Origin: a virus | IMG/VR virus record: IMGVR_UViG_3300013372_002181 | Coordinates: 1 to 41,402 of that record | Length of the DNA: 41,402 bases | Strand: one strand, 5' to 3' | In this document: piece after piece, positions 1,611 through 15,534 of the stretch | Position numbering within the stretch: the stretch's first letter is position 1 | Layout: each line of letters opens with the position of its first letter | Translations under genes and position numbers: made by a program | The notes under the pieces: model-generated | What the model was told of the DNA's origin: nothing | The model's database searches: none | Seen by the model: the letters and a program-made list of their open reading frames with translations, nothing else

Positions 1611-2732
1611 ATGGCTACTAAATCTGCTCCTGCTATTAGCGAAAATCGTACAGTAACTTCTGTAGAAGCCCGTCGAGGCATTCTGCGGTGCTTTAAAACT
1701 AAACGCCCTATTTTCCTTTGGGGCCCTCCCGGAATTGGCAAGAGCGAACTTGTTGCTACCATTGGTGAAGAACTAGGCGGCGTTACAATTGACCTTCGCC
1801 TGGGACAAATGGAACCCACTGACATCCGCGGTATCCCGTTCTTTAACAGAGACAACGGCAAAATGGATTGGGCCCCCCCTATTGAACTGCCTGATGAAGA
1901 AATGGCGGCTCAGCATCCTATTGTTATCTTGTTCCTTGATGAAATGAATCAAGCGGCTCCTGCTGTACAAGGTGCAGCGTTCCAGTTAATTCTTAATCGT
2001 CGCGTGGGCAAGTATAAGCTGCCCGATAACGTGGTGGTTGTTGCAGCCGGTAATCGCGAAAGCGACAAGGGCATTACATATCGTATGCCTACTCCGCTAG
2101 CAAATCGTTTTGTTCACTTGGAAATGCGTACTGACTTTGACGCTTGGCAGACCTGGGCAGTTAATCGCAAAATCCACAAAGACGTGGTTGGTTACTTGAC
2201 CTTTGCTAAACAAGACCTATACGACTTTGACCCACGCAGCTCAAGCCGTAGCTTTGCTACTCCACGCAGCTGGACCTTTGTAAGCGAATTGCTCGATGAC
2301 GACGAGAGTGCAGATACCAACATGGACCTGATTGCAGGTACTGTTGGCGAAGGGCTTGCAGTCAAGTTCATGGCACACCGCAAAGTTTCTGCACAAATGC
2401 CGGATCCAATTGATATTCTTTCTGGCAAAGTAACCGAACTCAAGACAAAAGAAATCTCAGCAATGTATTCTTTGACTGTGAGTCTGTGCTACGAACTTCA
2501 AGACAGCTACCTCAAGTTGAACAAGGCAGGTAAAATTGCCGATTGGCACGATAAGGCCAACTTCTTCTTCAAGTTCATGATGGAAAATTTTACCACTGAA
2601 CTTGTGGTTATGGGTGCTCGTGTTGCGTTGACTACTTACAATCTTCCTTTTGTGCCTAGCAAAATTGCCAGCTTTAACGCATTTCATGCTAAGTACAGCA
2701 AGTATGTTGTGGCAGCTAGCGGCAAAAACTAA
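1611..2732 (+). CDS. MoxR-type AAA+ ATPase (AAA_5 family)
   Basis: This 373-residue protein is a MoxR/dynein-like AAA+ ATPase. Walker A is GPPGIGKS at residues 38-45 and Walker B ends in FLDE at about 108-111. A sensor-1 Asn lies in AAGNRE (about 145-150) and an arginine-finger candidate in PLANRF (R166). The C-terminal 170 residues should form the helical lid. MoxR ATPases usually act with a von Willebrand factor A protein as a chaperone or metal-insertion/remodelling pair. The next gene, 11 bases away with its own AAGGA, encodes exactly such a VWA protein. It starts at the ATG at 1611 behind AAGGA and its own promoter. The remodelling target in the phage cycle is unknown. Confidence 0.9.
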   Translation: MATKSAPAISENRTVTSVEARRGILRCFKTKRPIFLWGPPGIGKSELVATIGEELGGVTIDLRLGQMEPTDIRGIPFFNRDNGKMDWAPPIELPDEEMAAQHPIVILFLDEMNQAAPAVQGAAFQLILNRRVGKYKLPDNVVVVAAGNRESDKGITYRMPTPLANRFVHLEMRTDFDAWQTWAVNRKIHKDVVGYLTFAKQDLYDFDPRSSSRSFATPRSWTFVSELLDDDESADTNMDLIAGTVGEGLAVKFMAHRKVSAQMPDPIDILSGKVTELKTKEISAMYSLTVSLCYELQDSYLKLNKAGKIADWHDKANFFFKFMMENFTTELVVMGARVALTTYNLPFVPSKIASFNAFHAKYSKYVVAASGKN

Positions 2733-2743
2733 TAAGGAATACC

Positions 2744-4015
2744 ATGTCAGATACTACACTAGCAGATAAGTCAAAAGTACAAACAGTAACAAATCCCAAA
2801 ACAGATGCGGCAGCAATCGATAAACTGATTACCGCCCGCGTGGGATTGCTACTCAAGGCACCATTCTTTGGTAACCTTGCAACACGTCTCAAATTGACAA
2901 ACGCAGACGCATGGTGCCCTACTGCGGCAACTGAAGGGCGTCACTTTTTCTATAACAGCGAGTTCATTAACCGATTAAGTCTTAAGGAATGCGAGTTCTT
3001 ATTTGGACACGAGGTCTTGCATGTAGTATATGATCACATGGGACGGCGGGGCGATCGTGAGCCGCGCTTGTGGAACATTGCCGACGACTATTGTGTTAAC
3101 AGCGACTTGATCGAATACCGTATTGGTGAGAAGATTACCAAGGTGCCTATCTTGTATAACAACAAGTATGACGGCATGAGTGCAGAAGAAGTATACGACG
3201 ATCTCTACAAGAATGCCGACAAGATTGATATTAGCAAACTTGGCGACATGATACTAGACGAGCACATGGACGGCGAAGGTGAGGATGGAGATGAGGGCGA
3301 AGGTGATGGTGACAAGCCGGGCAACGGTCGGCCCAGGTTAACTGCTGAAGAAAAGAAAGCCATTCGCGACGAAGTTAAAGAAGCAGTATTAGCGGCTGCG
3401 CAGGCAGCAGGTGCAGGTAATATCCCTGGCAATGTGCAACGAATGATTGGCAGTTTGACTGCCCCGCAGATTGGCTGGCGCGAACTATTGCAACAACAAA
3501 TTCAAAGCACCATCAAAAGCGACTTTACGTTTGCACGTCCAAGCCGACGCGGCTGGCATATGGATGCCATTCTTCCAGGTATGCGACCCGAAGAAACCAT
3601 TGACGTATGTGTAGCAATTGACACTTCAGGTAGTATTAGCAATGACGATTTGCGGGATTTTCTTAGCGAAGTCAAAGGTATTATGGACTCGTATCAGGAC
3701 TATCGCATCAAGGTATTGACTTGGGATACTGAAGTCTACAATCCGCAGGACTTTACTGCCGACAGCAATACCGACATTAGCGAATACCAACCCGGTGGTG
3801 GTGGTGGAACTGATCCTCATTGTGTTTGGGAATGGCTCAAAGAGAATGAGGTGCAACCAAAGAAACTGATCATGTTCACTGACTACTGTTTCTTTGGTTG
3901 GAGCCCAGAACAAGTGCAAGACTACTGCGACACTGTTTGGATTATCAAAGGCAATGAGAGTGCCGAGCCCGACTTTGGCATTTGGGCACATTACGACGAC
4001 AGTAACAAGGAATAA
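2744..4015 (+). CDS. VWA-domain protein with metallopeptidase-like N-terminus (DUF2201-type)
   Basis: This 423-residue protein has two recognisable parts. Residues about 20-170 form a metallopeptidase-like domain with HEVLH at 89-93, an HExxH zinc motif, followed by YDH. Residues about 285-420 form a von Willebrand A-like domain with a MIDAS motif DTSGS at 293-297, a GGGGGT loop near 351-356 and a FTD near 378-380. Between them lies an acidic, glycine-rich linker (about 172-192) that is probably disordered. This layout is known from VWA-like putative metallopeptidases encoded next to MoxR ATPases. The AAGGA at 2734-2738 sets the start. The conserved HExxH suggests retained metal binding, but peptidase activity has not been shown for this type as far as I know. 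Confidence 0.88.
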   Translation: MSDTTLADKSKVQTVTNPKTDAAAIDKLITARVGLLLKAPFFGNLATRLKLTNADAWCPTAATEGRHFFYNSEFINRLSLKECEFLFGHEVLHVVYDHMGRRGDREPRLWNIADDYCVNSDLIEYRIGEKITKVPILYNNKYDGMSAEEVYDDLYKNADKIDISKLGDMILDEHMDGEGEDGDEGEGDGDKPGNGRPRLTAEEKKAIRDEVKEAVLAAAQAAGAGNIPGNVQRMIGSLTAPQIGWRELLQQQIQSTIKSDFTFARPSRRGWHMDAILPGMRPEETIDVCVAIDTSGSISNDDLRDFLSEVKGIMDSYQDYRIKVLTWDTEVYNPQDFTADSNTDISEYQPGGGGGTDPHCVWEWLKENEVQPKKLIMFTDYCFFGWSPEQVQDYCDTVWIIKGNESAEPDFGIWAHYDDSNKE

Positions 4016-5542: not shown

Positions 5543-5834
5543 CTTCACAGTAAGAGAACAGTGGGAAGCAATAGTCAAGAGTGTAAAGAAATCTGATGTC
5601 CCAATTAATGTACTAGATAGCATTTCGGTACACCTAATTGATGGTACTAGAGTTGATATCAATATCACCGAAATGACTGCTAGTGGTGTTAGCCACAGTG
5701 ACATTGAAGACTATATCAATGATAAATTGACAACGCTGGATTCTTACATAGAGAATGTAGATTTTTATGTTAGCATTGACGAAGTGGCTCGCTTGGTACA
5801 ACCTATAACTGCAATAATACTTAAAGATTTATGA
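5496..5834 (+). CDS. Conserved phage hypothetical protein
   Basis: This 112-residue protein starts at the ATG at 5496, overlapping the upstream gene by 47 bases. No later ATG, GTG or TTG lies in frame before the conserved part, so the overlap appears genuine. The first 15 residues are basic (NQPRKRPRLKK). The rest reads like a small alpha/beta domain, with VLDSISVHLIDGTRVDINI near residues 39-57 and an acidic helix after it. It ends in an ATGA overlap with thymidylate synthase. The pattern resembles a conserved small protein of T4-like phages whose function I do not know. Confidence 0.7.
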   Translation: MSSNQPRKRPRLKKLNFTVREQWEAIVKSVKKSDVPINVLDSISVHLIDGTRVDINITEMTASGVSHSDIEDYINDKLTTLDSYIENVDFYVSIDEVARLVQPITAIILKDL

Positions 5835-6733
5835 AGCCGTATTTAGACCTACTTGAAGATGTTTTAACAAACGGACAAATGCGAAAAGATCGCACCGGTA
5901 CCGGTACCATTGGTGTATTTGGTCGGCAAGTTAGATATGATCTAACTGAGTCTTTTCCTTTAGTTACTAGTAAAAAGATGGCTTGGCGAAGTGTAGTCAG
6001 CGAGTTGCTGTGGTTTATCGAAGGTTCGGGGGATGAGCGGCGTCTTGCTGAACTTCTCCATGGTACGCGAGATGAAGACAAGAAAACCATCTGGACTGAT
6101 AATGCCACAGCACCCAATTGGCAGCCACATGCAGAGTACCCCGGTGACTTGGGTAGAGTATATGGTGTGCAATGGAGACATTGGAGAAGTCATGTTCCAA
6201 TTGGTGAACCTGATATCAATGATGAGTATGGTAAAACATGGTTTGATCCAATGTACAAAGAAATTGATCAACTATCTATTCTAATACAGGGTATTCAAGC
6301 AGACCCTTACGGTCGACGACATATATTAACAGCATGGAACCCAGGAGAGTTAAAATCCATGGCCTTGCCACCGTGTCATTGCTTTGCACAATTTTATGTA
6401 GCCGATAATCGGCTGTCCTGTCAGATGTATCAAAGGTCCTGCGACATGTTTTTGGGTGTACCCTTTAACATTGCTAGCTACAGTTTGCTCACGGCCTTGA
6501 TCGCTCAAGTGTGCGGTCTTGATGTAGGCGAGTTCGTTCATGTACTCGGCGATGCACATATATATCTGAACCACATAGAGCAGGTAAAAGAACAGCTAAA
6601 GCGTGAACCATTACCTGGTCCAGGACTTGATCTCAATACCAGTATTCGAGATATTACTAAATTTACTATGCAAGATATAAGATTAGTTGGGTATGTTTCA
6701 CATCCCAGTATAACAGCGGAGATGTCAGTATGA
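5831..6733 (+). CDS. thyA: Thymidylate synthase (ThyA)
   Basis: This 300-residue cytosolic enzyme converts dUMP and methylene-tetrahydrofolate to dTMP and dihydrofolate, supplying thymidine for phage DNA synthesis. The phosphate-binding RTGTG is at 21-25, the dimer-face DLGRVYGVQWR at about 106-116, RRH at 162-164, and the catalytic cysteine C182 lies in LPPCHC. The uracil-binding Asn (N213 in PFNIASY) is the dUMP-type residue. In related dCMP hydroxymethylases this position is usually Asp, so hydroxymethylase activity is unlikely. Length is close to the usual 264-316. The ATG overlaps the previous stop (ATGA), and the same overlap links it to the epimerase downstream. All expected catalytic residues are present. 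Confidence 0.97.
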   Translation: MKPYLDLLEDVLTNGQMRKDRTGTGTIGVFGRQVRYDLTESFPLVTSKKMAWRSVVSELLWFIEGSGDERRLAELLHGTRDEDKKTIWTDNATAPNWQPHAEYPGDLGRVYGVQWRHWRSHVPIGEPDINDEYGKTWFDPMYKEIDQLSILIQGIQADPYGRRHILTAWNPGELKSMALPPCHCFAQFYVADNRLSCQMYQRSCDMFLGVPFNIASYSLLTALIAQVCGLDVGEFVHVLGDAHIYLNHIEQVKEQLKREPLPGPGLDLNTSIRDITKFTMQDIRLVGYVSHPSITAEMSV

Positions 6734-7713
6734 AAATATTAGTAACTGGCGGACTAGGTCTCATCGGACATAACGTAGTTGCTCGTTTAGAACGATTGGG
6801 TCACCAAGTCGTAATAACAGATATCCAGACCAACTACGGAATTATTCCGCAAGAGGAACTGGACTACTTGCTTGTTGAACGTAGGAAAAAAATCAAACAA
6901 GCCAGCTTCTATAGATATAATATTACAGATAAAAAGAATATAGACTACTTGTTTACATTTGAACAGTTTGACACAGTTATACATATGGCCAGTTTCCCAA
7001 GGCAAAAGGTGGTCAATGCTGACCCTGCCGTGGGCGCCCGTGTGATGATAGAAGGCCTAGTTAATCTATTAGAATCCAGCAAACGAACCAATGTAAAGAA
7101 ATTTTTATATATCAGCAGCAGCATGGTATATGGAGACTTTGTAGATGATGTAACTGAAACTGCTGTATGCCGGCCACAAGGCCAATACGGTATTATGAAA
7201 TTAGCAGGGGAACACCTTGTCGCAGATTACGCTCGTCGCAATTGTTTTAACTATACTATTATTCGTCCTAGTGCTGTTTATGGACCGCTTGACGTTGAAG
7301 ACCGAGTGGTCTCAAAATTCATGCTCGCAGCAATGCAGGGCGGAGTGCTCAAAATTAACGGAGATCGAGAAACGCTAGACTTTACTTATGTGGATGATGC
7401 TGCCGATGGTATTGTAGCTGCTGCATTAAGCACAAATACTGCAAACAAAACATACAATATCACAAAAAGTCATAGTGTTACATTACTACAAGCAGCAAAG
7501 ATGGCATTAGAATTGGCCGGTGGTGGTCAATTATTGGTAGGCAATAAAGATCCTGATTTTCCCAGTCGTGGGGCATTAAACATTGATGCTGCACGACAAG
7601 ATTTTGGATTTAATCCTCAAGTAGACGTAGCAGAAGGTTTTCAGAACTATTATAAGTGGTTTACAGAGAGCCAGTACTGGCAGGAACGGATCAATGCAAA
7701 TAGAATTCAATGA
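6730..7713 (+). CDS. NAD-dependent epimerase/dehydratase (extended SDR family)
   Basis: This 327-residue Rossmann-fold enzyme is of the nucleotide-sugar epimerase/dehydratase type. The dinucleotide motif TGGLGLIG is at 6-13. An acidic residue ends strand 2 (D31), which favours NAD over NADP. The active site shows the Ser run at 129-131 and the Tyr-Lys pair YGIMK (Y153, K157), followed by RPSAVYGP and a C-terminal substrate domain. Such enzymes alter the sugar of UDP-, GDP- or dTDP-sugars; the exact sugar cannot be read from sequence. It overlaps thyA by four bases and the following glycosyltransferase-like gene by 20, so it probably supplies the activated sugar for the glycosyltransferases nearby. 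Confidence 0.92.
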   Translation: MKILVTGGLGLIGHNVVARLERLGHQVVITDIQTNYGIIPQEELDYLLVERRKKIKQASFYRYNITDKKNIDYLFTFEQFDTVIHMASFPRQKVVNADPAVGARVMIEGLVNLLESSKRTNVKKFLYISSSMVYGDFVDDVTETAVCRPQGQYGIMKLAGEHLVADYARRNCFNYTIIRPSAVYGPLDVEDRVVSKFMLAAMQGGVLKINGDRETLDFTYVDDAADGIVAAALSTNTANKTYNITKSHSVTLLQAAKMALELAGGGQLLVGNKDPDFPSRGALNIDAARQDFGFNPQVDVAEGFQNYYKWFTESQYWQERINANRIQ

Positions 7714-8593
7714 TTCGTTGCCATTGGTTTTTAATTTTCCAAACTACAAAATACCAAGTTGGGAGTTAAAATACGATCTCATATGGTATCTTGATCCTGA
7801 CTTTGCTACACCTGCAGGCACTAAAATTTGGGTCTGGCGAGTCAAATCAACCGAGCAGTATGCAGGCGATAAAGACATGGGACGTATCACGCCTAATCTC
7901 TCTAAACAATTGGATATAGTTTTTCTAAGCTATAACGAAGACAATGCCGAAGACAATTGGCGCCGGCTCCTAGATTTTCAACCCACAGCTAAAAGAGTTG
8001 ATGGTGTTGATGGATTGCTAGCAGCGCACAAACAAGCAGCAAGAATAGCCACAACAGACATGTTCTATGTAGTTGATGCCGATGCATACATATTAGACGA
8101 TTTTAAATTTAACTATATACCTAGTATATTTGATAGAGATTGTGTGTTTGTGTTCCATTCACAAAATCCTATCAATAGGTTAAGCTATGGGCACGGTGGA
8201 GTTAAAATATTTCCCAAAGAAACATTATTAACTGCCCATACAGATAAGCCAGATGTGACTACCTCCATTGCAAATAAATTTAAAGTTATTGAGGAAATTA
8301 GTAATATTGGTCTATTTAATACCAACCCATTTAATACCTGGCGTACTGCATTTAGAGAGTGTGCAAAACTAGCAGCAGACAATATTGATAATAATAATTA
8401 CAAAGACAATCAATTGAGATTGCATATCTGGAAAACTACCGGACATAGTAAGTTACATGGGGATAATGCAATAGCAGGTGCCATAGACGGAGAGATATTT
8501 GGTATTGCAAATAAAGACAACCATGAACGGCTTGGATTAATAAACGACCATGTGTGGTTAAAGAAAGTGTTTGATGTCCGTAATAAACAATGA
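7694..8593 (+). CDS. GT-A-like glycosyltransferase, copy 1
   Basis: This 299-residue protein starts at the ATG at 7694, inside the epimerase gene. From residue about 73 it shows a nucleotide-sugar transferase-like pattern: DIVFLSYNE, then AKRVDGVDG and AHKQAA, then a DAD at 128-130 in the DxD metal/nucleotide position, then YGHGGVKIFP (165-174). The same order of motifs occurs in the minus-strand gene at 11137-12042, so the two are paralogues. The first 70 residues, with YKIPSWELKYDLIWYLDP, are an added domain not found in the other copy. The family resembles uncharacterised phage glycosyltransferase-like proteins. Donor and acceptor are unknown, and catalysis is inferred from the DxD and fold-like pattern. 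Confidence 0.7.
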   Translation: MQIEFNDSLPLVFNFPNYKIPSWELKYDLIWYLDPDFATPAGTKIWVWRVKSTEQYAGDKDMGRITPNLSKQLDIVFLSYNEDNAEDNWRRLLDFQPTAKRVDGVDGLLAAHKQAARIATTDMFYVVDADAYILDDFKFNYIPSIFDRDCVFVFHSQNPINRLSYGHGGVKIFPKETLLTAHTDKPDVTTSIANKFKVIEEISNIGLFNTNPFNTWRTAFRECAKLAADNIDNNNYKDNQLRLHIWKTTGHSKLHGDNAIAGAIDGEIFGIANKDNHERLGLINDHVWLKKVFDVRNKQ

Positions 8594-9122
8594 TGCATTT
8601 AGCAGTGGGCAAATTGGCAGTAAAATTTGGCTTTGCGAAGAACTAGAACAGCTGGGATGGGAGTCAAATTGTACCTATGTTTATGGTGGCTGGTACGGAA
8701 TGGTAGGATTCTTGCTATTGAGTAGAGCAAAATTCAAGGTCAATAGCATACGCAGCATAGATATAGATCCCACATGCGAGCGCATGGCCGACATGTTCAA
8801 TGAGTACTGGGTATGGCAAAACTGGCAGTTTAAGGCCATCACAGCAGATTGCAATAATTTCAAAGCACCAGACATGGATCTAGTGATCAATACCAGTACC
8901 GAGCATTTCAAAAGTCAAGTCTGGTGGAATAATATACCTCGGGGCACCAGGGTTGTACTACAAGGCAACAATATGCCACATGATGATCACTTCACCCATT
9001 CTCATAGCGCAATTGATTTTGCCAGCAACTATGAGTTTGCCAAGATAGACTTCATAGGATCTAAAGACTTTGTCTATCCTGATTGGTCATTTACTAGATT
9101 TATGGTGATTGGTACTAAGTAA
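8574..9122 (+). CDS. Class I SAM-dependent methyltransferase-like protein
   Basis: This 182-residue protein has a Rossmann-like methyltransferase layout. The glycine motif is YVYGGWYG (35-42), an acidic strand end is IDIDP (62-66), ADCNNF follows at about 91-96, and a motif IV-like strand with VINTSTEHF is at about 104-112. Length fits a minimal class I methyltransferase. I chose the ATG at 8574 over a TTG one codon earlier; it overlaps the glycosyltransferase gene by 20 bases. It is the last plus-strand gene of the run and ends exactly where the opposing gene ends. The substrate is unknown. Given the neighbours, a sugar, glycan or protein side chain is more likely than DNA. No DNA-methyltransferase NPPY/DPPY motif is visible. 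Confidence 0.75.
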   Translation: MSVINNDAFSSGQIGSKIWLCEELEQLGWESNCTYVYGGWYGMVGFLLLSRAKFKVNSIRSIDIDPTCERMADMFNEYWVWQNWQFKAITADCNNFKAPDMDLVINTSTEHFKSQVWWNNIPRGTRVVLQGNNMPHDDHFTHSHSAIDFASNYEFAKIDFIGSKDFVYPDWSFTRFMVIGTK

Positions 9123-10193
9123 TTATCTACTGTTAAACTTGCCGACCTGCACCAATTCATGCTCGGTATAGCCTTTATGTAACTGACTGCCATCATCTAT
9201 ATCTCGCAGTGGTACCATGTCAAACATCAATTGTTGTTTTAATTCTTTGCTGAGATTATTGTAATCAACAGCGGCTTTTAGACTTTCAACAAAGTCAATA
9301 CTTTTTTGTATCTCGTTAGGCTTGGTCATTAATTTGACAATGTATGTATTGAGTTTCTTAGCGCCAGCTTTCATTACACCAACTATGCTCTGGTAATTCT
9401 TAGCAAATAAGTCAGGTTTCATAAATTCAAAGTGAGCACTGAATATCAAGGTATTATAGTTATCGGCATTTTTGCGCCAATAGCCGGGACCTTGACTTCC
9501 GTTACTTACCAGCATAACCCACTGCCCTTTGCTAGCCAAATAATCCACAAACGGTTCAAAGTCAGGATTTAGTGTGGGCTCGCCGCCGCCAAAATACCAA
9601 CGTATTTGATTGCCATTGCTCCAGTTATCTATTACATAGTTGGCAGTATTTTTAAACACGCTCAATGGTTTGTGTGCGTCTGTTTTATTGTGTACTCCTG
9701 GCCAGCAATAGCTGCAACTGTAATTACAAAATCTTCCAATATCCCAAAGTATTTGTTTAGGCAGTGGGTGGTGGCTGCGCACTGCTGATATTGTATTTAC
9801 AGACTCAATTGGTATACTGACCTTGTGATACTGCTGCTGTATAAACGCCGGTACGGCAGGATCGTCACCGCGGAACTTGGTTATAACAATATCAGACCCG
9901 CAACCGCAATTTTTATGAATGCAGGAGATGCCTGTTGTTGGCAGTGTAAAATTGTTGCCAATCTTTCCCAGGTATCCCCATTCTTTTGCTACATAGCCCA
10001 GCTGCCTGGCTTGAAATAATGTCATGGCGCTGGCACAGTTTGCAACCCAAACTTCACCATCAAAGTCTATATACAGGTTCTGTACACCAGCATCGCAATG
10101 CCAACCTTTAAATTGATTCAGCTTTGATGCTACCAAGTCTTCGATGCTGGCATCTGCTTTGCCGTTATCAGCCAGAACTATCAACTGTTTCAT
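9123..10193 (-). CDS. Radical SAM protein with N-terminal five-cysteine auxiliary domain
   Basis: This 356-residue protein has a radical SAM core with the CxxxCxxC cluster ligands C156, C160 and C163 (CNYSCSYC) and GGGEPT at 202-207. Unusually, a cysteine-rich auxiliary domain precedes the core: C33, C53, C91, C96 and C98, in a context of WHCDAGVQNLYIDFDGEVW. That domain matches, cysteine for cysteine, the C-terminal domain of the neighbouring radical SAM protein, so the domain order is swapped. Such cysteine sets (SPASM or twitch-like) usually bind extra Fe-S clusters in enzymes that modify peptides or other large substrates. It overlaps the neighbour by four bases (ATGA). The reaction and substrate are unknown. 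Confidence 0.88.
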   Translation of the reverse strand: MKQLIVLADNGKADASIEDLVASKLNQFKGWHCDAGVQNLYIDFDGEVWVANCASAMTLFQARQLGYVAKEWGYLGKIGNNFTLPTTGISCIHKNCGCGSDIVITKFRGDDPAVPAFIQQQYHKVSIPIESVNTISAVRSHHPLPKQILWDIGRFCNYSCSYCWPGVHNKTDAHKPLSVFKNTANYVIDNWSNGNQIRWYFGGGEPTLNPDFEPFVDYLASKGQWVMLVSNGSQGPGYWRKNADNYNTLIFSAHFEFMKPDLFAKNYQSIVGVMKAGAKKLNTYIVKLMTKPNEIQKSIDFVESLKAAVDYNNLSKELKQQLMFDMVPLRDIDDGSQLHKGYTEHELVQVGKFNSR

Positions 10194-11140
10194 ACTCGTT
10201 CCTTGGTGCTCATGATGTCATAGTTGCAATGACACATGATTTTATTACATCTAACTGGTACTGTGGGTAGGCGTAAATTTTCATCCCATATGTAGCCAAT
10301 CCTGTTTCCAACTTTACACCAGCCGCGATGTATGCTGCCATCCATGTCAACAATCAGCTGTTCAACACCAGCATAGCAATCCCACCCAAACCAGTTATTA
10401 GTACTGTTGGCAATAAACGAATGCGCAGACAACACCTTGCTAACTTCTCCTACTGTACGCATACTGCCACGATAAACTTTTTGTCGTTTGGTGTGTTTTA
10501 TTTTGCTGCCTAATAGAGCGTATTGCCGGTCAAAAATACTTTTTTGTTCAGCTGTATAATCGTACAGCTGGTCTCCAAAATCGTGTATCAAGGGTTGCAG
10601 TGCTAGACTAATATTAGATAGTGCTGTAGCCCGTTCTGCCAGTGCGTAGCAGTCGTCAAACTTATCTGGACTCATCATGACATTAACATGAACTTTAACA
10701 ATATCGTGTAGTATACCCGCCACTGCTAAAAAGTGGTCCGCGTTTGCCTCTTCAGGGTGGAAACTCAGGCATACATGGTCGAAAAAGTGCTTGTTTTCCT
10801 CCCACCAACGCAGGGTTCTACTGCCGTTGCTAATCATGCCTACTTTAACATCATGTTCGCGACAAAACTCGCATAGCGGTATAAAATGCTTGTACATGGT
10901 AACTTCGCCGCCAGTAAACTCAAAATATAATTTCTTACTTGGGTGTTGTTCTTTTACTTTGAGTATAAACCGTTTGATATCATCAAACTCGGGCCAGCGT
11001 TTACTACCGTCGTGTAGTATAGCAGGACAATAGCTGCAACTGAAATTGCAGGTGTTGCCCAAACACCAGTTGACCACAAACCACTCTGTGTTAGTGGGAT
11101 CTGCATGTTCTAGTCTTGCGTACTCTTGTTTGGTTGTCAT
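10190..11140 (-). CDS. Radical SAM protein with C-terminal five-cysteine auxiliary domain
   Basis: This 316-residue protein has radical SAM cluster ligands C31, C35 and C38 (CNFSCSYC), then FTGGEV near 75-80 and ISNGS near 103-107, the usual TIM-barrel landmarks. The C-terminal domain carries C255, C275, C298, C303 and C305 in the context WDCYAGVEQLIVDMDGSIH. It resembles SPASM/twitch auxiliary Fe-S domains found in peptide-modifying radical SAM enzymes and matches the N-terminal domain of the next gene. It overlaps both neighbours by four bases. The neighbours are glycosyltransferase-like genes, which suggests modification of a glycan-bearing or fibre substrate. The true substrate cannot be told. 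Conventional core-then-auxiliary order. Confidence 0.88.
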   Translation of the reverse strand: MTTKQEYARLEHADPTNTEWFVVNWCLGNTCNFSCSYCPAILHDGSKRWPEFDDIKRFILKVKEQHPSKKLYFEFTGGEVTMYKHFIPLCEFCREHDVKVGMISNGSRTLRWWEENKHFFDHVCLSFHPEEANADHFLAVAGILHDIVKVHVNVMMSPDKFDDCYALAERATALSNISLALQPLIHDFGDQLYDYTAEQKSIFDRQYALLGSKIKHTKRQKVYRGSMRTVGEVSKVLSAHSFIANSTNNWFGWDCYAGVEQLIVDMDGSIHRGWCKVGNRIGYIWDENLRLPTVPVRCNKIMCHCNYDIMSTKERV

Positions 11141-12042
11141 GATGACATTATATCCTTGTTTCTATGTAATCTCTTATAAAATTTCTTAAAGAATGCACTC
11201 TGCTCCGGACCCATTTCTAACACATGTAGTCCCAACCGGTCTTTAATTTCTTTTGAAATTTTTCTATAGTGATCTTGTTGACTTTGAAACGACATAACGT
11301 TAATGGAGTTAAACATATTTTCTAATTTAGCAAAATCCTGTACATCAGTATAATTCCAGTCTGGCTCCAGCATGACCTTATATGTGCCCAATCTAGCACC
11401 ATATATGGCCCAACGCCCATTCTCTACATCCCCACCAATACTGTGCCATATGTTCAAGTATTCTAAATTCTGATGATTCTGCATTTCTAAAAATTCATGT
11501 ATTGAGACACGACGACCTCGATCTAGACACATCTTCACTCCCTCACGGAAGCCAGCACGCCAAGCCTGTAGTCCACTGTGATTTGGATATGTAATCGAAT
11601 AACAATTCCACAAGGGCAAGTATCTGTGATCAAAACAGAATTCAACTTGTGTTTCTGGCCTACCATCGGTATTTTCATGAGTACGCATGTTATTAATAAA
11701 GTCTTTTGTCCAGCAACTTATACCCCCATTACCATATACTAATCCATTTATATTATTTCTAGCACGCCAGCGCAATACTGAATCCATATTGTTGTTATTA
11801 AATGACAGTACCTGGTCAAAAAATGTAGATTCTGGTAAGTTATCGCCATCAATTAGTATAAATCTGTCAGTGTCACTGGCAGCAGCCGCTGCCTTGTGCG
11901 CAGCATCACTTCCTTTTACTCCGTCAACCCGTTTAGCCCAGGGTATTATTTTCATGATTGTTGACCAGAATTCTTCACGCCTAGGTTCGTTATAGGTAAG
12001 AAATATACAACTTAAATCTTTTATGTTTACACTTATGTGCAT
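11137..12042 (-). CDS. GT-A-like glycosyltransferase, copy 2
   Basis: This 301-residue protein is a paralogue of the plus-strand gene at 7694-8593. It shares CIFLTYNEP (12-20), AKRVDGVKG (36-44), AHKAA, then DGD at 65-67 in the DxD position, YGNGGISCW (103-111) and a later WRAGFREG. It lacks the other copy's first 70 residues. I chose the ATG at 12042, which has a GTGGGGG stretch upstream; a GTG at 12054 would add four residues. It overlaps the upstream small gene by ten bases and the radical SAM gene by four, so it is probably translated with them. The function is inferred from the GT-A-like pattern; donor and acceptor are unknown. Confidence 0.7.
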   Translation of the reverse strand: MHISVNIKDLSCIFLTYNEPRREEFWSTIMKIIPWAKRVDGVKGSDAAHKAAAAASDTDRFILIDGDNLPESTFFDQVLSFNNNNMDSVLRWRARNNINGLVYGNGGISCWTKDFINNMRTHENTDGRPETQVEFCFDHRYLPLWNCYSITYPNHSGLQAWRAGFREGVKMCLDRGRRVSIHEFLEMQNHQNLEYLNIWHSIGGDVENGRWAIYGARLGTYKVMLEPDWNYTDVQDFAKLENMFNSINVMSFQSQQDHYRKISKEIKDRLGLHVLEMGPEQSAFFKKFYKRLHRNKDIMSS

Positions 12043-12392
12043 CGATACCCCCACTGTTCAGTTTTTCCGTTATACTTTGAATCTACTATAAATATCATAT
12101 TATTTTTTATTGTTAAAAATCTACCACCATCATCAAGTACTAGATTTTTATAACCGTTCCCTGACATTTCTGCACGTTCTATGTTGTTGTCAACTATTTT
12201 ATAATTTGAGCATATATCTATACTGTTGTACAACTCAATAGTGACAACTATATAGTTATCATCTGAAGGTATTACTGCCGTGGTTTTATGGGTACAATTT
12301 TTTGTTAATGGATCATAATAAACCCGTAGTTCTACTGGTCTAGGTTTTATTATGACCTCGGGTCTTAAATTAGTTTGAAAGTAATTTTTCAT
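12033..12392 (-). CDS. Hypothetical protein within the modification cassette
   Basis: This 119-residue protein starts at the ATG at 12392, 23 bases inside the preceding glycosyltransferase-like gene, and overlaps the following one by ten bases. The sequence is beta-rich (VELRVYYDP, NYIVVTIELYNSI, RFLTIKNNMIFIVD) with a charged middle, suggesting a small all-beta domain. No signal peptide, membrane segment or catalytic motif is visible, and the family is not recognised. The overlaps on both sides suggest its dosage is tied to the enzymes around it. Confidence 0.7.
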   Translation of the reverse strand: MKNYFQTNLRPEVIIKPRPVELRVYYDPLTKNCTHKTTAVIPSDDNYIVVTIELYNSIDICSNYKIVDNNIERAEMSGNGYKNLVLDDGGRFLTIKNNMIFIVDSKYNGKTEQWGYRCT

Positions 12393-13212
12393 AATGATCG
12401 ATTAGTTCAGGAGTTACAAAATTTTTCTGATGGTAGTGGAACGGTAATTGCTGCCGTGCAAAACCCACTGTTAGTGTAGACTTATCAAATTGGTGATAGA
12501 CTGCTGTGCGCCAGTCCCTATTGGGTTCCCAACCATTTATAGCACCTTTCATGTGTACAAATCTAGGCACTGATCCATTTGGGTTATATAATCCATTGTC
12601 TCCGCATAACTTGGCGGCTATGGCAAAAACTAAATCAGTATTGGGGCCTTGTTGACCAATTCCTGTTAATATTTCTTTACTAAACAACGACCAATTGGCA
12701 TAAACTAACCTTGCGTAGTCAAACAATCGAGCAGCTGGTTGTCCTTGCTTAAAATAATAAAATCCAGTATAAACATTTAACAAACCGTTTTGATCAAATA
12801 TTTTACGATATGATCGGTTATTAGAAACTGTGCCGCGATAATCTACTACATTGGTAGTAAAGCAGACATCTCGTTGTGACATTATATCCCACCAGTGATC
12901 AATTGAATTTGTAAATAACATATCTGCTTCTATTTTTACAGTTTCTGTGTACGGAGATGCTGCTAGTGCTTTCCATTCGTTTTTTAATTTCCAGCTATCC
13001 ATGGCAGCGTCGTCTTCCCCAGGTATGTCAATAACATGATCAAATACTTTTAAATGTTTTTTTGTAATAAAACTACGAGTGTGCTCATCAACAACCACTG
13101 CATAGTTATTGATTTTTTGAGTAGCTTTTATACTCATGGCCTGTGCATAAGCCATGGTTAAATAATCAGTCTTATTATTATTTTGAACAAATGTTAGATA
13201 TCCACGTGTCAT
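12370..13212 (-). CDS. GT8-like glycosyltransferase-like protein
   Basis: This 280-residue protein shows a GT-A pattern. An N-terminal strand (GYLTFVQNN) with DYLTMAYAQAMSIK matches the donor-binding start of GT8-type enzymes. IEADMLF at about 94-100 supplies an acidic DxD-like site (E95, D97), GFYYFKQG follows near 150, and NTDLVFAIAAKL is near 195. A His-rich stretch (FVHMKGAINGW) near 225 fits the metal-binding end of GT8 enzymes. The adjacent gene at 13209-14057 has the same opening layout, so the two are probably related duplicates. It overlaps that gene by four bases. Activity, donor and acceptor are inferred or unknown. The DxD appears as EAD, which may still bind metal but is less usual. 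Confidence 0.68.
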   Translation of the reverse strand: MTRGYLTFVQNNNKTDYLTMAYAQAMSIKATQKINNYAVVVDEHTRSFITKKHLKVFDHVIDIPGEDDAAMDSWKLKNEWKALAASPYTETVKIEADMLFTNSIDHWWDIMSQRDVCFTTNVVDYRGTVSNNRSYRKIFDQNGLLNVYTGFYYFKQGQPAARLFDYARLVYANWSLFSKEILTGIGQQGPNTDLVFAIAAKLCGDNGLYNPNGSVPRFVHMKGAINGWEPNRDWRTAVYHQFDKSTLTVGFARQQLPFHYHQKNFVTPELIDHYEKLLSN

Positions 13213-14057
13213 AGTGCAAGCTCTGTTAGTTGTGTTATTATATCAAGGTCAGTTATAGTTAGTTTATTCATTATATGTATGTTAGTATCTTTTAACACGG
13301 TAAATGATTTACCAGCTGGCAATGTTTCTGTGCCTTTACGATTCCATGTAAAAACTATCTCTCCTGTTGATTTTACTTCTGCTATATCAACCCCGGTATT
13401 AGCAGTAAGCAGTGGTCCATGAATTGATTTGAAGTTTTTATTATTATACCCGGTTAGTGCCTGCAATGCTATGCTTAGTGCATAATCATTTCTATAGAGT
13501 TGTGGTATAAAATTATAGGCGCCAGCGTAGTAAAGGTAATTTTCTTTTATGCCTTGCATGAATTCAAAAACACCTTGGGCTAATTTGTTTTTAGTAAAAT
13601 ACACCACAGTGGCCCATTGCATGGGAATTCCCGGGCGGCCAACCTGTGCTCCTCGTTGTAAACTTCTACTGCCAGTTATGTCAATGACATAATTGTAGCA
13701 CATGATATCGTGATTGGTATCAAACAAGTATTTTAGACCTGAATCAAAAATCAAGTAGTCTGCATCAATTAACAGAGTTTGATCATATGGACTAAGATCG
13801 TACACGCTGGGGCGATTTTGATTATGCCAGACTACTCGTTTGGACCCAGATCCAAACTTAAATACTCGCTCATACTCTTTATCAACAAGATCCTGTATTA
13901 CAATTTGATCAAATACACCAGCTTCTACATCTGTTGAATTTGTTATTAATGTAACCGGAATATCTAGATGTTTTTGGACCAATTTAGCAGCCAAGGTCGC
14001 CATTGACACATAATCTATAGTGCTGTTATAGGCAAATATAACCACACCCTTAGACAT
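13209..14057 (-). CDS. GT-A-like glycosyltransferase-like protein
   Basis: This 282-residue protein starts at the ATG at 14057; a TTG five codons earlier is the alternative. It opens with GVVIFAYNSTIDYVSMATLAAKL, parallel to the first residues of the following gene. LLIDADYLIFD places a DAD at 98-100, the usual DxD metal/nucleotide site, after a basic region (GSKRVVWHNQNRPSVYDLSPYD). PMQWATVVYFTKN near 160-172 resembles the acceptor side of GT-A enzymes. It overlaps the upstream small gene by eight bases and the downstream gene by four. It probably moves a sugar from a nucleotide donor; the donor and target are unknown. Confidence 0.68.
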   Translation of the reverse strand: MSKGVVIFAYNSTIDYVSMATLAAKLVQKHLDIPVTLITNSTDVEAGVFDQIVIQDLVDKEYERVFKFGSGSKRVVWHNQNRPSVYDLSPYDQTLLIDADYLIFDSGLKYLFDTNHDIMCYNYVIDITGSRSLQRGAQVGRPGIPMQWATVVYFTKNKLAQGVFEFMQGIKENYLYYAGAYNFIPQLYRNDYALSIALQALTGYNNKNFKSIHGPLLTANTGVDIAEVKSTGEIVFTWNRKGTETLPAGKSFTVLKDTNIHIMNKLTITDLDIITQLTELAL

Positions 14058-14370
14058 TGGTATCTTTATCAATTGAGTTTGTTCGTTGAACTTCTGTAGC
14101 CCAGTGCACCGATGCCATACGATAGGCAGCTTTGGCCTCAGCTAGTAAGGCATTCCTATCTGCTAGGATTGGGGTATTGTAGATATCTTCTACGTGAATT
14201 TCGGCGTCATGCCAACTATTCAAAAATGCAATCAATTCAGGACGTGCAATAAATGTGCCTCCCCTGTGTGTGATTGTTAATTTAGCATCGTAGGTTTCTT
14301 TGAGGCTGGTCAAGAAAGCAGATTTTGCAAATTGGGCGTCGGCAAGATCTTTGAGTTTATTACTGTCCAT
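14050..14370 (-). CDS. Small hypothetical protein
   Basis: This 106-residue protein starts at the ATG at 14370 with AGGA eleven bases upstream. It is charged and mostly helical, with one short beta-like stretch (KLTITHRGGTFIARPELIAFL) at about residues 30-50 and a C-terminal alanine-rich helix containing EAKAAYRMASVHWATEVQR. There is no membrane segment or catalytic motif. It is the first gene of the enzyme run, 36 bases downstream of the tyrosine-rich fibre gene on the same strand, so it is probably co-transcribed with the structural genes. The family is not recognised; proteins of this size and style occur in T4-like phages. Confidence 0.65.
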   Translation of the reverse strand: MDSNKLKDLADAQFAKSAFLTSLKETYDAKLTITHRGGTFIARPELIAFLNSWHDAEIHVEDIYNTPILADRNALLAEAKAAYRMASVHWATEVQRTNSIDKDTNV

Positions 14371-14406: not shown

Positions 14407-15534
14407 TCAGATCATCGACACCAGTCCATTAAAATCGATGTAGTCCCACGTTGGGTCTTTGGTGTCAAGGAATTCGGTGCCTGGAATTAGCGGCACTAAA
14501 CTTAAACTAGTAGTACCATCAATCACGTCTGACGAATCTGGAGTAATTACTTCGCCATTAACAAGAGACACAGTAATAGTCAATACATTACCTAATCCGC
14601 CTAGCAAGCCAGTGGGTCCGGATGTTTTTACTAAAATTTTTATATAGTCTCGAGAGTCCTGGTAGTATCCGTAACCGTACTCGTAGCCGTACTCGTAATT
14701 GTAATTGTAATTGTAATTGTACGGATAACTATAATTATCGTACCCGTATCCGTATCCGTATTCTTTTGGACCATACTGTCTATAGTGTTCTAATTCTTGC
14801 GCCGGCGATCCGGCCCAATACCCGCCATTGGTATTATCTAAGATTGTGTAATTAGAACCCTTGATGCCAGCACCACCAATTTTACGAGTGTTTCTATAAT
14901 CAATTGATATAGTGCCCATATCACCAACCATGTTGTTCCAAAAACCATCACGTGCGCTAGTGCCACCGGTATGTCCCAAGGACAATCTTATTTTGCCGCC
15001 AGAGTTGAAAAAATATCTAGCAGAGTCGGCAGTTTCAAATGTTAGTGTCTGTGTAAACCGTAGGGTTCGTGCCCCAGTATGCCCCCAATAGCCAGTATAA
15101 CTAGTGACATGAGATTTTGTTGGTTGTCCAACTGCGTATACACCAGTAGAAAAAGGTGCCTGTGTAGTTGCGTATACATTGCCTACATTATTATAACCTT
15201 CAAGGGTATACGGTTCAAAGTGTTGATATGTCCTAATAGGAGTGCCAGCTACTACACTAACATACCCAGGATCATATATTGTGGGATCATACACGGAACC
15301 CTGATGTCCTATTATTTTTGACAGGATGTAATCAAGGTTGTTCCATTCCTGTGTACGCATAAGATCACCCACAGCCACTGGCGCTATATACGTATTGGAT
15401 TGTCCGTAGCCAAACCTACCGTAACCATCTCCCCATACCTGTCCGGCGTTTGCGCCACTGGGTTGCAGTCCGGGTGCGGTAACTAGTCTATCGTAATCGG
15501 CTGCTAACGCAATGCCGCCTGGTGCATACGCCAT
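14407..15534 (-). CDS. Virion fibre-like protein with tyrosine-rich repeat
   Basis: This 375-residue protein opens with MAYAPGGIALAADYDRL and is rich in Gly, Tyr, Thr and Asn. Residues about 165-235 resemble a beta-rich domain (TLTFETADSARYFFNSGG, GTISIDYRNTRKIGG). Residues 259-291 are an almost strict Tyr-X repeat (X = Gly, Asn, Glu, Asp, Ser, Pro). The C-terminal 80 residues look like a beta-sandwich (VLTITVSLVNGEVITPDSSD). AAGGA lies just before the ATG. It sits among other fibre-like genes, which supports a role as an adhesin or appendage part, but I know no family with this repeat in a phage. The repeat is probably extended or aggregation-prone. Confidence 0.72.
   Translation of the reverse strand: MAYAPGGIALAADYDRLVTAPGLQPSGANAGQVWGDGYGRFGYGQSNTYIAPVAVGDLMRTQEWNNLDYILSKIIGHQGSVYDPTIYDPGYVSVVAGTPIRTYQHFEPYTLEGYNNVGNVYATTQAPFSTGVYAVGQPTKSHVTSYTGYWGHTGARTLRFTQTLTFETADSARYFFNSGGKIRLSLGHTGGTSARDGFWNNMVGDMGTISIDYRNTRKIGGAGIKGSNYTILDNTNGGYWAGSPAQELEHYRQYGPKEYGYGYGYDNYSYPYNYNYNYNYEYGYEYGYGYYQDSRDYIKILVKTSGPTGLLGGLGNVLTITVSLVNGEVITPDSSDVIDGTTSLSLVPLIPGTEFLDTKDPTWDYIDFNGLVSMI
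14662..14760 (-). repeat. Hexanucleotide-based Tyr-X repeat
   Basis: The stretch encodes residues 259-291 of the fibre-like protein. It is built from six-base units whose minus-strand codons alternate TAC with GGA/GGC, AAT, GAG or similar; four successive plus-strand copies of gtaatt are visible near 14695-14718. A short unit in a coding region can gain or lose copies by replication slippage without a frameshift, changing repeat length. Confidence 0.8.

Follow-up and report, generated by a model that had tools for sequence, protein, structure and literature searches.

Do two adjacent radical SAM genes whose domains run in mirror-image order form a genuine two-enzyme module, how did the reversed order arise, and what might the pair do? 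These questions are raised by the window, a virus fragment of 41.4 kb, in which an earlier note had pointed out such a pair. Both reading frames were confirmed on the minus strand: rSAM1 (10190..11140, 316 aa, ATG start) has its radical SAM core followed by an auxiliary domain, an order hereafter termed RA, while rSAM2 (9123..10193, 356 aa, ATG start) has the auxiliary domain followed by the core, termed AR, and the two genes share a 4-base ATGA stop/start overlap (10190..10193, minus strand), which suggests translational coupling and is also found in the loci L001, L002, L003, L146 and L150. The Pfam Radical_SAM profile PF04055 was matched above its cut-off by both proteins (E 1.3e-10 for rSAM1 and 1.5e-9 for rSAM2), and the superfamily hallmarks CX3CX2C and GGE are intact in both cores, namely CNFSCSYC at residues 31-38 and GGE at 77 in rSAM1 (core ~residues 15-230, 10451..11098, minus strand), which has almost no sequence ahead of the core, and CNYSCSYC at 156-163 and GGE at 203 in rSAM2 (core ~residues 148-330, 9204..9752, minus strand). 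Orthologues are 51-96% identical to rSAM1 and 33-83% identical to rSAM2, and purifying selection acts on the two genes (dN/dS of ~0.02 and ~0.05 between the window and L001). AF2 structure models had a mean pLDDT of about 80 (80.5 for rSAM1 and 80.0 for rSAM2), although some stretches of the auxiliary domains were modelled with low confidence.

The predicted auxiliary Fe-S domains span ~residues 246-314 of rSAM1 (10199..10405, minus strand) and ~residues 24-112 of rSAM2 (9858..10124, minus strand), and the cysteine positions given previously, C255, C275, C298, C303 and C305 in the former and C33, C53, C91, C96 and C98 in the latter, proved exact. All five are invariant among 19 aligned rSAM1 homologues; among 15 aligned rSAM2 sequences C33, C91, C96 and C98 are invariant, and the second cysteine is displaced by two residues in L004/L030, turning GX6C into the canonical GX4C. 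Comparison of the two auxiliary-domain profiles by hhalign yielded a probability of 99.4 and an E of 1e-21, with 37% identity over 68 columns, and the core profiles matched with an E of 1e-28. In a control keeping the cysteine columns fixed and shuffling all others, the best of 60 shuffles scored 26 against 107 for the real alignment, so the match goes beyond the cysteine pattern. The homology of the auxiliary domains thus stands, and the alternative that the N-terminal domain of rSAM2 is an unrelated cysteine-rich domain does not fit the shuffle result; judged from sequence, rSAM1 and rSAM2 are paralogous enzymes.

What kind of auxiliary domain the pair carries was examined by motif and profile comparison. 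The twitch motif CX9-15GX4C-gap-CX2C does not describe the window pair, which reads CX12GX6C-gap-CX4CXC, with GX4C present in some rSAM2 relatives. Neither auxiliary domain alone obtained a match in Pfam, and an NCBIfam scan of the isolated domains gave a sole match, that of STM4011 to the rSAM1 domain (E 6e-6). The STM4011 family (NF038073) resembles rSAM1 in both its core and its C-terminal auxiliary domain, but the full-length rSAM1 score of 58.7 bits falls well below the curated cut-off of 200; no paper on STM4011 was found in the open-access literature. Prokaryotic viperin (NF038283) was rejected as an assignment, with 44 and 56 bits, from the core only, versus a curated cut-off of 180. 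Both rSAM1 and rSAM2 share with SkfB, the sporulation killing factor maturase, five auxiliary cysteines including CX4CXC (PMC6231123); SkfB was also recovered by sequence and Foldseek matches, the sequence similarity being confined to the core, and it differs from rSAM2 in that the rSAM2 auxiliary domain is N-terminal, and from both proteins in its N-terminal peptide-binding RRE domain, which neither was recognised to carry. By its cysteine layout the domain is thus a five-cysteine (CX4CXC), twitch-like type closest to SkfB. The SkfB cluster is coordinated through CX33CXC, and the cysteine preceding the hairpin lies away from it (PMC6231123); by analogy C53 of rSAM2 and C275 of rSAM1, each with its CXC pair, would be the predicted cluster ligands.

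The earlier note had called the auxiliary-first order unusual for SPASM/twitch-type enzymes, whose characterised members carry their auxiliary clusters in extensions after the core (PMC10470005). The order itself turned out to be catalogued already, as NCBIfam NF033640 ('N_Twi_rSAM'), the N-terminal-twitch radical SAM subfamily; no paper on an N-terminal twitch/SPASM order was found in the open-access literature. NF033640 enzymes have a cysteine-rich, twitch-type domain before the core and occupy the same phage cassettes: of 20 sister contigs, 14 gave a score over the cut-off, many of them with several copies, and an NF033640 gene frequently follows directly on rSAM1 or rSAM2. Membership of rSAM2 in NF033640 was rejected on a score of 26.4 bits, from the core only, against a curated cut-off of 170, and all 15 aligned rSAM2 relatives matched the family with a best E of only 2.5e-9. 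The NF033640 auxiliary domain ends in a canonical CX2C and that of rSAM2 in CX4CXC, and no profile similarity was detected between the rSAM2 auxiliary domain and eight N-twitch domains from the sister contigs. In a tree of 98 cores, of which many deeper branches are weakly supported, the N-twitch enzymes formed a separate, strongly supported clade, and the AR cores were placed among the RA cores; a single AR clade was not rejected, the constrained tree even outperforming the unconstrained one (p-AU 0.86). The reversed order of rSAM2 therefore looks like a separate change, and the domain order probably changed once within the rSAM1/rSAM2 family, independently of NF033640.

Is the pairing itself more than an accident of one genome? 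RA followed directly by AR was listed at 20 loci, of which two are copies of the window, and as L004 and L005 are near-identical among the remaining 18, about 17 divergent loci share the pair, drawn from aquatic phages and from a few bacteria; the AR-then-RA order was never seen among the loci examined. Of 41 cases of an rSAM1-type gene, 19 had AR as the gene directly after it (L264 being added by inspection to a count of 18, and one case being a window copy), 11 had an N-twitch gene there and none another RA. The paired AR sequences fall to 33% identity to rSAM2, while the RA partners stay at 50% or above. The rSAM1-rSAM2 gene pair is a real module. Its back-to-back arrangement is conserved as an ordered pair but is not strictly needed, the two genes being separate or convergent in L017 and L065 and N-twitch genes taking the place of AR in the 11 cases above. 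Nor is the partnership obligatory across the whole family, because distant AR enzymes stand alone and rSAM1 has an N-twitch neighbour in L011, L029 and L031, in whose contigs no rSAM2 was found.

A survey of 369 Bdellovibrionota genomes placed close orthologues of rSAM1 (381-477 bits against a threshold of >380, the next best score being 294) and of rSAM2 (333-445 bits against >330, the next best being 277) in the same six only, G636, G767, G022, G021, G520 and G513; these thresholds were set after the score gap had been seen, and as the genomes are related and several are draft or partly incomplete, no probability is claimed for the coincidence. The two genes are adjacent in G636 and G022, separated by an N-twitch gene in G767, convergent in G021, ~3 kb apart in G513 and ~7 kb apart in G520, and their joint retention despite the broken order argues for a shared task. 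These close orthologues also bear on the suggestion that the pair could be an undescribed phage modification enzyme: its function is indeed undescribed, but it is not specific to phages. At L267, a Bdellovibrionota copy, the adjoining genes look by inspection like a polysaccharide ABC-2 exporter, and at L264, also from a Bdellovibrionota genome, a gene that by inspection is flagellin-like (7221-8057) lies ~2 kb from the rSAM1-rSAM2 pair.

A shared task would be absent if the two were independent enzymes co-travelling in a mobile cassette rich in radical SAM genes, with adjacency reflecting shared regulation and no joint reaction. As many as ten radical SAM genes occur in one such cassette, in numerous tandem arrangements, distant AR members occur without a radical SAM neighbour (L270, L271, L274, L276 and L277, from other Bdellovibrionota), and in Campylobacter phages the number of diverse radical SAM genes is 11-12, with an interchangeable module of unknown role accounting for five (PMC2853527). 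Against this stand the fixed rSAM1-rSAM2 order and the occurrence of close orthologues in identical Bdellovibrionota genomes even when non-adjacent, and we regard independent co-travelling as distinctly unlikely.

The position of the auxiliary domain varies across this family. The 225 loci collected contained 114 distinct RA and 54 distinct AR genes, proportions that are biased by a search seeded with both types, and a fused core-auxiliary-auxiliary-core gene was sought in all of them and found in none. Core and auxiliary domain were encoded as separate genes, R then A, in L178 (4989-7620), L182/L183 (L182:4998-7007), L184 (3299-5329), L185 (2948-4855) and L215 (1286-2219); the two genes mostly overlap or abut, being ~600 bases apart in L178, and are preceded by an AR gene in all but L215. 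The stand-alone auxiliary genes retain most of the cysteine pattern and evolve under purifying selection, with a dN/dS of 0.14-0.20 in comparisons across contigs. They give the strongest indication of an auxiliary domain able to work in trans, an indication that falls short of proof for the window pair. One could envisage the auxiliary Fe-S domain as a movable module usable from either end of a core or in trans, with rSAM1 and rSAM2 forming a pseudo-symmetric heterodimer in which each auxiliary domain serves the partner core; the AR-R-A arrangements (L178, L182, L184 and L185) and the R-A arrangement (L215) would then be its in-trans version. We think this reading unlikely. It is an open question if electrons in SPASM/twitch enzymes travel inside one chain or from chain to chain, and transfer from protein to protein has been demonstrated with the radical SAM enzymes PapB and QueE (PMC10470005); a single auxiliary domain type occurring C-terminally, N-terminally and free-standing, together with an ordered pair, makes a natural system in which to address it.

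The genomic setting was inspected for hints of the substrate. A myovirus-type tail region occupies 15.5-40 kb of the window on the minus strand, with a baseplate wedge, a tail-lysozyme hub and tail-fibre proteins; within the same stretch, a single ORF of 4249 aa at 18430-31179 matches the virion structural protein family phrog_10938 at both ends. The tail genes are followed by a minus-strand cassette consisting of the 14407-15534 protein, a small protein, the glycosyltransferase-like GTd (13209..14072, assigned by inspection and conserved in the cassette), the GT8/glycogenin-like glycosyltransferase GTc (12370..13212, glycogenin profile match E 4e-7), a small uncharacterised protein of 119 aa (12033..12392) with same-position homologues in some phages, the glycosyltransferase-like GTb (11137..12054), rSAM1 and rSAM2. 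GTb, assigned by inspection, lies directly upstream of rSAM1, overlaps it by 4 bases and is its conserved neighbour, found in 10 of the 22 loci examined around the pair; a Pfam scan of GTb gave no match. Converging on rSAM2 from the plus strand are genes for a thymidylate synthase (5831-6733), an NAD-dependent epimerase, a further glycosyltransferase-like protein and a small methyltransferase-like one (8571..9122), the last recognised by motif inspection only, its profile searches being without match. A profile search against solved structures likewise yielded no meaningful match for GTb or the methyltransferase-like protein. A homologue of the latter lies inside the operon, immediately before rSAM1, in L022 and L148, and the order YGY-h106-GTd-GTc-GTb-(MT)-rSAM1-rSAM2 is found in many phages. 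In pelagimyophages, too, host-recognition clusters within the structural region bring together tail-fibre genes, glycosyltransferases of the GT8 type and radical SAM cassettes, and the glycosyltransferases have been read as modifiers of the host O-chain (PMC7029224); the window phage is likened to them by gene content, and we found no description there of the domain architecture or of the pair. rSAM1 and rSAM2 offer a concrete, expressible entry point to such radical SAM-rich host-recognition cassettes of phages.

From this setting, we tentatively favor, as the most likely reading, that rSAM1 and rSAM2 are co-translated partners tailoring a surface glycoconjugate. A SkfB-like, twitch-type auxiliary domain would have been relocated to the N-terminus in rSAM2; the two enzymes, acting as a complex or in consecutive steps, would belong to the glycosyltransferase cassette of the host-recognition region beside the tail genes; and the target may be a glycan encoded by the phage and placed either on a tail protein or on the host envelope. 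SAM cleavage by each core would generate a 5'-deoxyadenosyl radical, while the auxiliary cluster would serve to bind the intermediate or to oxidise it, as in twitch enzymes. That the two belong together is well supported; the physical or metabolic nature of their partnership is something that we infer, as are cluster binding by the auxiliary domains, the substrate and the reaction. L066, an RA-AR pair without a recognisable glycosyltransferase, was counted against the glycoconjugate reading.

The thymidylate synthase homologue in the window raises a different candidate, DNA hypermodification. A radical SAM enzyme is part of some phage thymidine hypermodification pathways. The upstream pair at 1611-4015, an ATPase and a protein bearing the PHROG label 'HNH endonuclease', is in fact an AAA ATPase of the MoxR type and then a DUF2201 VWA protein, on which that label looks wrong, and not a base kinase or pyrophosphorylase; moreover, the cassette tracks glycosyltransferases and tail genes, with no synthase near most pairs. 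DNA hypermodification was rejected on these grounds and is highly improbable for rSAM1 and rSAM2.

Returning to the glycoconjugate reading, a more serious competitor is that the pair modifies a peptide or protein in the manner of RiPP maturases: radical chemistry would alter a small peptide or a tail protein, and the glycosyltransferases would put sugars on that same protein. The cysteine layout is SkfB-like, and Foldseek matched the peptide enzymes SuiB, EpeE and SkfB, but the sugar enzymes DesII and BlsE were matched equally well (TM ~0.3-0.55 throughout). Among cellular proteins, the sister family nearest to rSAM1 (39% identity across 284 aa; 253-272 bits with the rSAM1 profile) occurs in five Vibrionales genomes in a conserved locus of the order SelO-like protein, GT2, a peptide with a MYNLSVDEISMVDGGG double-glycine leader, radical SAM enzyme, HlyD, C39-peptidase ABC exporter and acetyltransferase. 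This is a peptide-export setting and so speaks for a peptide substrate and against the glycoconjugate reading. In the phage cassette, by comparison, no leader peptide, on unsystematic inspection, and no RRE domain were recognised, and Pfam and NCBIfam scans of rSAM1 and rSAM2 gave no RRE match. The tyrosine/glycine-rich structural-type protein at 14407-15534 (minus strand) bears an 18-tyrosine tract (YGYGYGYDNYSYPYNYNYNYNYEYGYEYGYGYY), kept in only some homologues; as it is missing from those of the pair-keeping phages L004, L022 and L172, this tract was rejected as the substrate. Peptide or protein modification is, in our estimate, somewhat unlikely.

For two radical SAM enzymes working as one, a precedent exists in the thuricin CD maturases TrnC and TrnD, paralogous auxiliary-cluster enzymes of one gene cluster that form a tight complex (PMC12093266). 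The likeness to rSAM1/rSAM2 is by description, and the Trn enzymes differ in being both RRE-core-SPASM, with the same domain order, and in acting on peptides. The rSAM1-rSAM2 enzyme pair is real and conserved; paired radical SAM enzymes and N-terminal twitch enzymes are both known, so it is not categorically new.

Two further observations concern the surrounding gene families. The Vibrionales locus (L079, L259, L260, L261 and L262), with its Gly-rich peptide carrying the MYNLSVDEISMVDGGG leader, looks like an undescribed peptide natural-product system, on which no paper was found in the open-access literature, and L263 holds an interrupted copy of it, with an inserted ORF dividing the radical SAM gene. 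At ~12 sister loci, long repeat proteins with units like FDFSWRPDPREPAYIYTWGN adjoin N-twitch or auxiliary-first radical SAM genes and are possible substrates, as exemplified by L041:2815-4293, L004:14411-17209, L158:1024-4908 and L166:706-4881.
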